Positions 25,981 to 29,752 of a stretch of 64,000 nt of DNA are shown here, piece by piece. The stretch covers positions 1-64,000 of the forward strand of contig JABHGV010000008.1 in NCBI GenBank assembly GCA_018671895.1, read 5' to 3'. The stretch's first letter is position 1, and each line of letters starts with the position of its first letter. The DNA is from Rhodospirillaceae bacterium. Its GTDB lineage: Bacteria > Pseudomonadota > Alphaproteobacteria > Rhodospirillales > JABHCV01. The notes under the pieces are model-generated. The model was not told where the DNA came from. It saw only the letters and a program-made list of their open reading frames with translations, and ran no database searches. The position numbers and the translations under genes were made by a program.

Positions 25981-26871
25981 TCAGGTAACCTTGCCGACTG
26001 CCTTGTCGTAATCTTCCATCATCATCTTGCAGATGTCACCCGGAGTGAAATGATTTTCGTCAATTTCGCCGACGGGCGTGACTTCTGCCGCGGTGCCGGT
26101 CAGGAACACTTCGGTCGCATTGGCCAATTCGTCGGGCATGATGACGCGTTCGATAACCTCGATCCCGCGCGCACGGGCCAGATCAATAACCGTGCGCCGG
26201 GTGATGCCGTCCAGGAAGCAGTCAGGTGTCGGCGTGTGCAGTTTGCCGTCGCCCATGACGATGAAGATGTTGGCGCCTGTGGCCTCGGCAATCTGGCCGC
26301 GCCAATCGAGCATCAGCGCGTCGTCGTAACCCTCAGATTCAACGGCGTGTTTGGATAAGGTGCAGATCATGTACAGACCGGCGGCCTTGGCGTGCACCGG
26401 TTCGGTTTCCGGCGACGGCCGTTTCCACGGCGCGGTTTTCAGGCGGATGCCTTTCATACGGGCTTCGGGCGAGAAGTACGACGGCCATTCCCAGGTCGCG
26501 ATGGCAAGATGGATTTTCGAGGTCTGTGCGCTGACGCCCATCATTTCGCTGCCGCGCCAGGCGATCGGGCGGATGTATCCGTCGATGATATTGTTGGCCT
26601 TGCATGTTTCGATGCAGGCCGCGTCGATGTCGGCCACACTCCACGGTATGTCGAAGCCCAGTGTGTTGGCAGAGCCGACGAGGCGTTCGCTGTGTTCGGT
26701 CAGCTTGAAGATGTTGCCGGCATACATGCGTTCGCCCTCGAACACCGACGATGCGTAATGCAGGGCGTGGGTCAGCAAATGGACATTGGCGTCGCGCCAG
26801 TCGATCAATTCACCGTCAAACCAGATCAGACCATCGCGGTCATCGAATGCAGGGTGAGTGGTCTGTGTCAT
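25981..26871 (-). CDS. ilvE: Branched-chain amino acid aminotransferase
   Basis: A 296-residue PLP-dependent class IV transaminase for the last step of Val, Leu and Ile synthesis. It contains GLIWFDGELIDW, HYASSVFEGERMY, PIAWRGSEMMG, the PLP-Lys region HAKAAGLYM and the phosphate-site TVIDLARARGIEVIER. The first seven codons overlap the end of the palindromic element at 26851-27126, so the element supplied the start codon and N-terminal residues MTQTTHP. Confidence 0.95.
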   Translation of the reverse strand: MTQTTHPAFDDRDGLIWFDGELIDWRDANVHLLTHALHYASSVFEGERMYAGNIFKLTEHSERLVGSANTLGFDIPWSVADIDAACIETCKANNIIDGYIRPIAWRGSEMMGVSAQTSKIHLAIATWEWPSYFSPEARMKGIRLKTAPWKRPSPETEPVHAKAAGLYMICTLSKHAVESEGYDDALMLDWRGQIAEATGANIFIVMGDGKLHTPTPDCFLDGITRRTVIDLARARGIEVIERVIMPDELANATEVFLTGTAAEVTPVGEIDENHFTPGDICKMMMEDYDKAVGKVT

Positions 26872-27126
26872 CTAGATTGTATCCTTACGATCATTTTTCC
26901 CGTTTCCTCGGCAGGAGGGAGAGTGCAGGCGATGCGGCCCATCGGCAAGCTTTTCCGACGCCCCGAGGGAGCGGGAAAAGTGATCCGTAGGGCGGCACTG
27001 CGAGATTCCCGGTCGTTGTCGCGCGCCGCTTGTGGTGGATGGCACCACGGCGCAACGCGCTCCTAGCCGGAAACCTCGCAGTGCCGTCGTAAGGGTGCAA
27101 TCTAGACGGTACAGACCACTGACCAT
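26851..27126. repeat. Palindromic element 1, three-way-junction fold
   Basis: The 40-bp ends (26851-26890 and 27087-27126) are inverted repeats matching at 33 of 40 positions. Inside are two more long hairpins: arm A (26891-26911 with 26963-26983, 18 of 21) and arm B (26993-27012 with 27067-27086, about 18 of 20). Together they form a cruciform or three-way junction. The left end starts AGGGT. It fills the 369-bp gap between ilvE and the MarR gene, apart from the last 110 bp. Open frames inside it are not credible genes. Confidence 0.75.
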
Positions 27127-27192
27127 GTAATTTTCTTTCGTAAACAGCAGTTGTGGCAAAAGTATCTTGCGTTTTCTATCAAGTCCGGGCAT

Positions 27193-27215
27193 ATATGTCA
27201 ACAAGGCTGACATAT
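27193..27215. promoter_or_regulatory. Inverted-repeat operator before the MarR gene
   Basis: ATATGTCA (27193-27200), 7 nt, TGACATAT (27208-27215): a perfect 8-bp inverted repeat 25 bp before the MarR start. It is the probable autoregulatory site of the operon. Confidence 0.65.
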
Positions 27216-27240: not shown

Positions 27241-27753
27241 ATGACCAAGGCAAAGCACAGGCAGGAAAAAGACGCGCCGATTAATGAAGAGGCCCTGCGT
27301 CAGGTCATTGAATTAATGTTTTTCGCCTATCGTGATTTTACCGCCGAGCCTGATGCCATTCTGGCCGAATACGGGTTCGGGCGCGCCCATCACCGGGTCA
27401 TTTATTTTGTCGGGCGCAACCCCGGCATCGCCGTCAATCAATTGCTCGATACCCTGAAGATCACCAAGCAGAGTCTGGCGCGTGTGCTACGCCAATTGGT
27501 CGATGAAGGCTTTATCGAACAGCGCACGGATGCCTTCGATGGCCGTCGCCGGTTGTTGTACTTGTTGGAAAAAGGTCAGCGCCTGGAACAAAAATTGACG
27601 GAGCGTCAGGCGCGACTCATTGCCCGGGCCTATGAAGAAGCCGGGGTTGGGGCAGCCGACAGTTTCCGCGCCGTGCTGCGCTGTATCATCAACTCCGATG
27701 ACCGCAGCCGGGTCGGTGGTGATATACTCGCCCGTGAAGAAAGGGAGGGCTAA
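27241..27753 (+). CDS. petP: MarR-family regulator, PetP-like
   Basis: A 170-residue winged-helix regulator. The MarR DNA-binding region is visible as GFGRAHHRVIYFVGR, KITKQSLARVLRQLV and the wing DGRRRLLYLLEKG. It overlaps the response regulator start by 1 bp. In Rhodobacter capsulatus PetP and PetR form such a pair and PetR is needed for cytochrome bc1 expression. PetABC homologues lie 26 kb away in this window. The PetP assignment rests on pairing and family resemblance. Confidence 0.75.
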   Translation: MTKAKHRQEKDAPINEEALRQVIELMFFAYRDFTAEPDAILAEYGFGRAHHRVIYFVGRNPGIAVNQLLDTLKITKQSLARVLRQLVDEGFIEQRTDAFDGRRRLLYLLEKGQRLEQKLTERQARLIARAYEEAGVGAADSFRAVLRCIINSDDRSRVGGDILAREEREG

Positions 27754-28448
27754 TGGACAACGAGGTTCCGCATATTCTGGTTATCGACGACGATGTACGG
27801 TTGCGTGATTTGTTGGTCCAGTTTCTGAGCGAGAATGGTTTTCGGGTGTCCGCGGCGTCTGATGCGGCCGATGCCCGGACCCGCATGGCCGGGTTGGTGT
27901 TTGACCTGTTGGTGCTTGATCTGATGATGCCCGGTGAAAGCGGCCTTGAATTTGCCGCGGACTTGCGACGTACCAACGCGGTGCCGATTTTGATGCTGAC
28001 CGCCATGGGCGAGGCCGAGAACCGTATCGAGGGGCTGGAAAAGGGTGCCGACGACTACTTGACTAAACCGTTCGAGCCCCGCGAGTTGCTGTTGCGCATC
28101 AACAATATTTTGAAACGGGTTCCGGTCACAGACGACCTGCCAGAGGAAATTCAATTGGGCGACGTGCTCTATAACACAGTCCGTTCAGAGCTGAGCCGCG
28201 AGGGCGAACCGATCCGTCTGACCGAGGTCGAGGCGGCTTTGCTGGGGGCGCTGGCCGGACGCCCCGGCGCGGTACTCAGCCGCGATGATTTGTGTGAAAT
28301 GACCGGGGGCACCGTGGGCAGTGGGGGCGGCGGGCGCGCCATCGACGTGCAGGTGACACGCCTCAGGCGCAAGATCGAAAACAATCCGAAGCTTCCCATT
28401 TACCTGCTGACCGTACGTGGCAAGGGCTACGTCTTGAGGCCAGACTGA
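27753..28448 (+). CDS. petR: OmpR-family response regulator, PetR-like
   Basis: A 231-residue regulator with a receiver domain (acidic cluster D12-D14, phospho-Asp 56 in LVLDLMMPGESG, Lys in YLTKPFEPRELLLRIN) and a C-terminal winged-helix domain. The wording of the receiver is very close to what I remember of R. capsulatus PetR. It is coupled at both ends: 1-bp overlap with petP and TGATG overlap with the kinase. Confidence 0.82.
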   Translation: MDNEVPHILVIDDDVRLRDLLVQFLSENGFRVSAASDAADARTRMAGLVFDLLVLDLMMPGESGLEFAADLRRTNAVPILMLTAMGEAENRIEGLEKGADDYLTKPFEPRELLLRINNILKRVPVTDDLPEEIQLGDVLYNTVRSELSREGEPIRLTEVEAALLGALAGRPGAVLSRDDLCEMTGGTVGSGGGGRAIDVQVTRLRRKIENNPKLPIYLLTVRGKGYVLRPD

Positions 28449-29752
28449 TGATCAAACGTTTCCTGCCCACCAGCCTGCTCGGCCGGTCGCTGATGATTAT
28501 CGTCATGCCGCTGATTCTGTTGCAGGTGATTGCCGGTCTGATTTTCTATGAAAGCCACTGGGACAAGGTGTCGCTCAGGCTGTCGCGCAACGTTGCCGGC
28601 GATATCGCCGGGGTGATCAACCTGATGCACATGTATCCGGGTGATATCAACCGCGCCAATATCGCCAATTTGGCGTCTGTCGACTTCGCCATGACGACGG
28701 AATTCCGCAATGGTGAGATCCTTAGCAAGACGGCTGCAAAACCGGCTGATGCCATGCAGGAAACCCTGTTCAAGGCCCTGCGCGAAGGGGTGCGGCTGCC
28801 GTTTCGGGTTGGCATGGACGACGATGGGCGCCATGTGGTGATCGACGTGCAATTGACCGACGGGGTGCTCAGGGTGGTCGTCAACCGCAAGCGGCTTTTC
28901 AGTTCGACGACCTATGTGTTCGTGATCTGGATGGTCGGCTCGTCGCTGATCCTGTTCGCCGTCGCCACCATCTTCATGCGCAATCAGGTCAAGCCAATCC
29001 GCCGTCTGGCCGAGGCTGCGGACGATTTTGGCAAGGGCCGCGATGCGCCTAATTTCAAACCGGAAGGGGCATCGGAAGTGCGCCGGGCGGCCGCCGCCTT
29101 CATCGCCATGCGCGAACGCATCGGTAGGCAAATCGAACAACGCACCGGCATGTTGTCGGGTGTTTCGCACGACCTGCGCACACCATTGACGCGGATGAAG
29201 CTGCAACTGGAAATGGCGTCGGCGGATTCCGGGCTTGAAAACATCAAGGACGACATATCGGAAATGGAGCACATGCTGGAAGAGTATCTGGCATTTGCCC
29301 GTGGCGAGGGCGGCGAGGAGGCGGTGCCGACGGACCTGGGCGGATTGCTCGATGACGTGGTCGGACGATCCCGGCGCAAGGGCGGGGTGATTGACCTGCA
29401 TGTAGAAAGCGATATCCGCATGCCGCTCAGGCCCAATGCGTTTCAGCGCGCGGTCACCAACCTGATTGAAAACGCGACGCGCTATGCCGACCACGTATCG
29501 GTCCGGGCCGGGCAGCGCGACGATGTGATCGAGATTACCATCGATGACGACGGCCCCGGCATCCCCGAAGCCCAGCGCGAGGATGTGTTCAAGCCGTTTT
29601 TCAGGATTGATCAGTCGCGCAATCTGGATACCGGCGGCGTCGGGTTGGGGATGTCCATCGCGCGTGATGTGGTGCGCGGCCACGGCGGCGATATCGAGCT
29701 GGCAGACGGCCCCGGTGGCGGTTTGCGGGCGCGTATCAGGCTGCCGGTCTGA
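28448..29752 (+). CDS. Sensor histidine kinase (EnvZ type)
   Basis: A 434-residue membrane kinase: membrane segments near residues 17-37 and 155-177, a short periplasmic sensor, HAMP, HisKA with phospho-His 241 in GVSHDLRTPLTRMK, and HATPase (NLIENATRYADHV, DDDGPGIPE, GGVGLGMSIARDVV). It is the cognate kinase of the PetR-like regulator by operon position. The signal sensed is unknown. Confidence 0.9.
   Translation: MIKRFLPTSLLGRSLMIIVMPLILLQVIAGLIFYESHWDKVSLRLSRNVAGDIAGVINLMHMYPGDINRANIANLASVDFAMTTEFRNGEILSKTAAKPADAMQETLFKALREGVRLPFRVGMDDDGRHVVIDVQLTDGVLRVVVNRKRLFSSTTYVFVIWMVGSSLILFAVATIFMRNQVKPIRRLAEAADDFGKGRDAPNFKPEGASEVRRAAAAFIAMRERIGRQIEQRTGMLSGVSHDLRTPLTRMKLQLEMASADSGLENIKDDISEMEHMLEEYLAFARGEGGEEAVPTDLGGLLDDVVGRSRRKGGVIDLHVESDIRMPLRPNAFQRAVTNLIENATRYADHVSVRAGQRDDVIEITIDDDGPGIPEAQREDVFKPFFRIDQSRNLDTGGVGLGMSIARDVVRGHGGDIELADGPGGGLRARIRLPV

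Follow-up and report, generated by a model that had tools for sequence, protein, structure and literature searches.

The palindrome at the 5′ end of ilvE in the window (the whole 64,000-nucleotide stretch analysed here) is most probably a copy of a MITE-like alphaproteobacterial family which IS630-family transposases would move in trans, and which entered ilvE at codon 2 long ago. We assign this reading, in which ilvE would now be translated by stop and restart, a probability of about 0.82. The mobility of the element and its supply of the ilvE start are both well supported by comparison of copies and of ilvE genes. Two traits of the family are unusual: its conserved folded core is combined with ends that can apparently be swapped to suit different transposases, and it has repeatedly inserted just after start codons, with a putative restart inside the element. 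The family may thereby illustrate how mobile DNA can spare the genes that it hits.

Extent and fold of the palindrome

A preliminary description of the window reported a 276-bp palindrome at 26851–27126 whose left end supplies the ilvE start. The palindrome was confirmed by inverted ends of 41 nt at 26850–26890 and 27087–27127, which are 83% complementary and enclose a second inverted pair, and by a DNA fold of −88.1 kcal/mol against −49.9 ± 3.8 kcal/mol for 100 dinucleotide shuffles (z = −10.0, no shuffle being equal). Its borders had to be corrected, since the outer 6 bp or so on each side are flank. Comparison with other copies places the mobile unit at 26857–27120 (264 bp, AGTGGTCTGT...ACAGACCACT). 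Matches in a sequence search of 40 relatives span bases 13 to 276 of the query, which is the same interval; most related copies are 264–267 bp long, and the aligned copies share the border pattern ct/AGTG...CACT/ag (slashes marking the borders).

The left terminal inverted repeat (34 nt, 26857–26890) reads outward into the ilvE start on the minus strand. The right-hand mirror copy noted earlier proved to be the second terminal inverted repeat of the element (34 nt, 27087–27120). Between them, on the plus strand, lie arm 1 (26891–26983), a long hairpin whose core is the most conserved part (CTCGGCAGGAGGG...GGCGATG...CATCG...CCCCGAG), a small junction hairpin (26984–26992) that is CCC/GGG in the majority of copies, and arm 2 (26993–27086), the second long hairpin. 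Both long arms had been described before, while the junction hairpin had been missed.

From 31 diverse copies we obtained one consensus fold, made up of a 34-bp stem of the two ends, arm 1, the small junction hairpin and arm 2. Double compensatory changes were found in 65 of its 99 pairs. Covariation in the ends is expected for any terminal repeats. In the arms it points either to selection for hairpin formation or to imperfect palindromes being corrected from a template, two causes that the present data do not distinguish. The multi-arm fold is the conserved body of the element, and its role may lie in transposition or at the RNA level.

Members of the family

BLASTN against the window's own genome (2.5 Mb in 98 contigs, one of which carries the window element) gave a single copy. 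The genome is akin to marine Rhodospirillales MAGs, the order being named after the titles of related loci. The search of the 40 relatives gave copies of at most 83% identity in other families of the order, and the relatives' genomes hold many copies each. A covariance model (R1) built from arm 1, with at most 15 candidates scored per genome, matched at least 86 of the order's 248 genomes at E ≤ 0.01; in the class it matched 26 of 337 genomes at E ≤ 1e-5. With this model the own genome yielded the window copy and three diverged copies. These diverged members (G000:C85:11083, C32:37371 and C72:30683) have other terminal repeats; the two that were measured are 265–268 bp long and differ in their ends.

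The plasmid and phage collections searched contained no match to the element, and the core pattern occurred in only three viral contigs. Rfam gave nothing above threshold, with sub-threshold matches of plant and animal miRNAs to the stem only. The hairpin family is absent from Rfam and from the open literature searched, and an earlier description elsewhere is possible. The family is apparently undescribed and widespread across Alphaproteobacteria.

The members have the features by which MITEs are recognised: they are small, non-coding and dispersed, with terminal inverted repeats of 34 nt (usually 23–26 of 26 positions complementary), TA duplication and empty sites. The suggestion of a MITE-like transposable unit in the preliminary description was borne out by the dispersed copies, by their CTAG/TA insertion sites and empty sites, and by the matching IS630 ends described below.

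Insertion sites and target duplication

Among 62 unique copies, TA stands beside the left border in 48 and beside the right border in 49; both sides have it in 36 copies and neither side in one. CTAG is found at the left end in 41/62. Insertion into TA with a preference for CTAG is the pattern expected of the IS630/Tc1-mariner group, and IS630 itself is known to prefer CTAG (Tenzen and Ohtsubo 1991, cited in PMC2170065).

At two clean empty sites the duplication is seen to be 2 bp long. At pgk, the congener G097 has gcgccATGACGAGGTTC where the occupied site reads ATGACTAG-element-CTAGGTTC, and at a gene for a YbbP-like permease, G001 has ATGAGGGTTAGCGCG against ATGACGGCTAG-element-CTAGCGCA. 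A 4-bp CTAG duplication was considered and rejected, because it would disrupt the reading frame of ilvE and because the duplication measures 2 bp at each of the two empty sites. The window copy no longer has TA at either border, and a TA duplication at this site is therefore inferred. At another locus (L028:1713), a related AATACC-type element ends exactly at the apparent recG start, where the duplicated TA supplies the A of the ATG.

IS630-family transposases

The candidate mobilisers found in the order and class are proteins of the IS630 family (NF033545; DDE_3) whose elements end at CTAG. Several of the terminal-repeat types of the MITEs, the window's type included, match ends adjoining such transposases. 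The ends of L208 (GTGTCCTG...) are of a type that MITEs in the same genome carry; those of L209 and L268 (GTGGATAGAATCTAAC..TGGTACCC) match a MITE end type, and that of L310 (GTACAGCCCAGCGG) matches a MITE end in 20 of 24 positions. The L322 end (GTGGTCTGCATCATCTAATTT) is of the window's type and agrees with other MITE copies of that type in 20–21 of 24 positions. The L324 end (GGGTCCAGACTCATT) is of the type of L288, another copy of the element in the window's own genome. Scores of the IS630 partners against MITE ends were 18–21 of 24, and those of IS630 copies with other ends 10–13 of 24. The transposase of L322 shares 80% identity with that of L321 and only about 30% with that of L208 (P0001); the end types therefore belong to different IS630 lineages. 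In L322 the transposase is split into two overlapping frames (147–1318), which suggests programmed frameshifting.

When end copies were paired within G037 or within the retrieved loci, no autonomous partner emerged; the IS630 partners were located through IS630 searches in other genomes. In the own genome no IS630 gene was detected, and the window copy is therefore probably immobile at present. On these matches of ends and target sites, IS630-family transposases would move the element in trans, by cut-and-paste into TA with CTAG preferred.

The ilvE locus

The gene for branched-chain amino acid aminotransferase (ilvE, 25981–26871, minus strand, 296 aa) scored above cut-off with NF005726 and TIGR01122. 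Close relatives start this gene with ...gagaaagataattacATG-NNN-NNN-CCN-...-TTC-GAC-GAC, that is, with ATG plus 15 nt and then GAC-GAC, and the window reads ...gaaagaaaattacATGGTC-element-CACCCTGCATTCGATGAC. Removal of the element and one TA restores the relatives' length at the ilvE start. The empty-site comparison with related ilvE genes, which lack the element and keep the native ATG and a short leader, places the insertion directly 3′ of the native ATG. By the same comparison, the ancestral ATG is the one at 27124–27126 (minus strand), now separated from its gene.

The present ATG (26871–26869, minus strand; MTQTTHPAFDDRDG...) does lie in the left end as described before; the element contributes the first five codons, and this ATG is not ancestral. 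The earlier description was right that the ilvE start comes from the palindrome; the native ATG on its far side and the recurrence in other genes had been overlooked. The ATG at 26871 is the only in-frame one that gives a complete IlvE, and the sequence of this protein is intact, sharing about 81% identity with the IlvE of relatives. The frame from the native ATG runs open through the element for 84 codons (26872–27126, minus strand) and is closed by a TAG (26872–26874) immediately 5′ of the new ATG. A putative Shine-Dalgarno box, AAGGA, lies 10 nt 5′ of the new ATG (26882–26886, minus strand). The ends of the L322 transposon have an outward ATG too; the ATG therefore belongs to the IS630 end type and did not evolve in ilvE.

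Upstream, the 110 nt 5′ of the native ATG are 66–77% identical to those of relatives in the family. The likely native promoter consists, on the minus strand, of a −35 box TTGACA (27196–27201), kept in relatives, and a −10 box TAGAAA (27173–27178) at a distance of 17 nt, kept in close relatives; TTGACA-N17-TAGAAA is conserved in most of these relatives. A palindrome at 27194–27214 (TATGTCA-ACAAGGC-TGACATA) overlaps the −35 box, between ilvE and a divergent MarR-like gene at 27241. Its TTGACATATATG is kept in most relatives and looks like a conserved operator. Genes for the MarR-like regulator, a response regulator and a sensor kinase stand in a row at 27241–29752, divergent from ilvE.

Recurrence in other genes and translation

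We then sought split genes as ORFs with an in-frame ATG inside an element end, and checked their gene families. Four further genes are split near their start with the native ATG kept: pgk (L051), an NrfD/DsrP-like gene (L118), a YbbP-like permease gene (L067) and ftsQ (L061). A second species, G088, has the pgk junction as well. In all four the native frame stays open for 84–90 codons, and the element ATG, which lies −8 to +3 nt from the stop, is in the gene frame; with ilvE this makes five split genes, all chosen by an in-frame element ATG. The same arrangement as in ilvE in at least four other genes suggests that the ends of the element allow continued translation of a split gene. Among the insertions scanned there was no mid-gene insertion with both halves in one gene family. 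For annotation this carries a warning, as the starts that ilvE and pgk now have in the affected genomes are not ancestral.

By this arrangement, ribosomes would start at the native ATG, traverse the element in the 84-codon open frame, terminate at the TAG and reinitiate at the ATG next to it, which has an AAGGA box, so that ilvE would still be made. Stop-restart translation is what we infer from the sequence. Within genes, CTAG is almost always read in the phase NCT-AGN, and the entry and exit frames are therefore predictable. The overlap of stop and ATG (TAGATG, ATGA, TGATG) would put the ribosome back in the original frame.

Alternative explanations

Could the structure instead be an RNA element controlling ilvE, as was also proposed in the preliminary description? 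The strong covarying fold at the ilvE 5′ end would suit a conserved cis-acting riboregulator, but about 30 ilvE genes of relatives lack such a structure at the site and have a short native leader, the element also occurs at unrelated genes, and Rfam gave no match above threshold. We regard a conserved ilvE riboregulator as refuted and its probability as very low; a secondary regulation in this single species may exist. Just as improbable is a chimeric assembly in which a repeat was falsely attached to the start of ilvE. Assemblies often break at repeats, and this one is in 98 contigs, but the genome has only one copy of the subtype and so no repeat to drive a false join, both flanks are the true ilvE flanks, and comparable insertions in other genomes are located within contigs. 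The data fit a mobile element, and neither a riboregulator nor chance.

A more serious contender, to which we give somewhat less than an even chance, accepts the mobile element and holds that ilvE translation depends entirely on ribosomes initiating independently at the element ATG with its AAGGA, the open native frame being incidental. Such initiation would suffice without any restart. AAGGA lies 10 nt 5′ of the new ilvE ATG, pgk and ftsQ have AGGGG-like stretches before their new ATG, and open frames are frequent in DNA of high G+C. The entry frame NCT-AGN is open up to the last 60 nt in 59–65% of 54 copies, only moderately better than the other frames (31–44%; shuffled, 16%), and these percentages are non-independent because the copies share descent. 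However, in every one of the five split genes the native ATG is retained and its open frame of 84–90 codons ends beside or overlapping the new ATG, and the strong fold could mask an internal site unless ribosomes open it. Stop-restart, our preferred reading for ilvE, may be extended to a transposon transparent to translation: CTAG would fix the phase, the open body and the stop-restart ends (TAGATG, ATGA, TGATG) would keep genes that are hit just after their start codon, essential ones included, working, and the core would pass between end types and hence between IS630 transposases. We offer this extension tentatively, with the odds somewhat against it. In G037, copies with three end types have cores that are 91–95% identical while their ends are 29–50% identical, and within each copy the two ends agree with each other. 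The terminal repeats may have been exchanged around a conserved core, or the cores may have been homogenised by gene conversion. The latter, a concerted evolution in which each lineage of terminal repeats is old, has nearly an even chance and would account for such similar cores despite three end types in one genome. It requires that conversion tracts halted repeatedly at the same border of arm and terminal repeat, on both sides.

Comparison with known elements

By its features the element may be classed as an IS630-type MITE, nearest to RUP in its mode, modular like BOX, supplying a start like MITEAba12 and tolerated in genes like the Rickettsia palindromic elements (RPE); in the open literature we found no described family joining all these traits, and an earlier description elsewhere is possible. 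RUP of Streptococcus pneumoniae, for which IS630-Spn1 is the proposed mover, is likewise a small non-coding repeat with a TA target and IS630-matching ends (PMC2229807). However, RUP has 107 bp and short end matches, whereas the element here has 264–267 bp, 34-nt ends, two long arms and several end types for different IS630 lineages. MITEAba12 of Acinetobacter has an outward start codon in its terminal repeat which gives the neighbouring gene its first residues, MQQS (PMC6382973), but it has 113 bp, a weak fold, a 9-bp duplication, ISAba12 as parent and stops in all frames, and stop-restart was not described for it. RPE are palindromic mobile elements tolerated within genes (PMC2229807, PMC10969869); they are read in frame within one protein, whereas here the frame stops beside a new ATG. 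Correia/NEMIS share TA at the termini and a strong hairpin (PMC2229807), but are of 107/155 bp, from Neisseria, with 24-bp ends.

The CIR repeats of Caulobacter and other alphaproteobacteria are intergenic, with hairpins and TA at the termini (PMC2229807), but lack terminal inverted repeats and carry a methyltransferase-site motif. Membership in CIR was rejected, as the GANTC sites lack conservation in this family (scattered, in 7 of 31 rows). BOX of S. pneumoniae has paired end modules with a variable number of inner modules (PMC3049150), much as some copies here gain hairpins of about 63 nt and some lose the core; host and end modules are different, and the likeness is one of architecture only.

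Among such variants, L115, L093, L107 and L204 carry extra G-rich hairpins of about 63 nt nested in either long arm or in both, with total lengths of about 330 or 390 bp. Some copies without the core are 78-bp forms consisting of the ends only. At L119, two of these ends-only forms of 78 bp (2177–2254 and about 2780–2859; ATACCAAGGGGCGCTGATCAT) bracket an apparent GcrA-type gene, resembling a small composite transposon.
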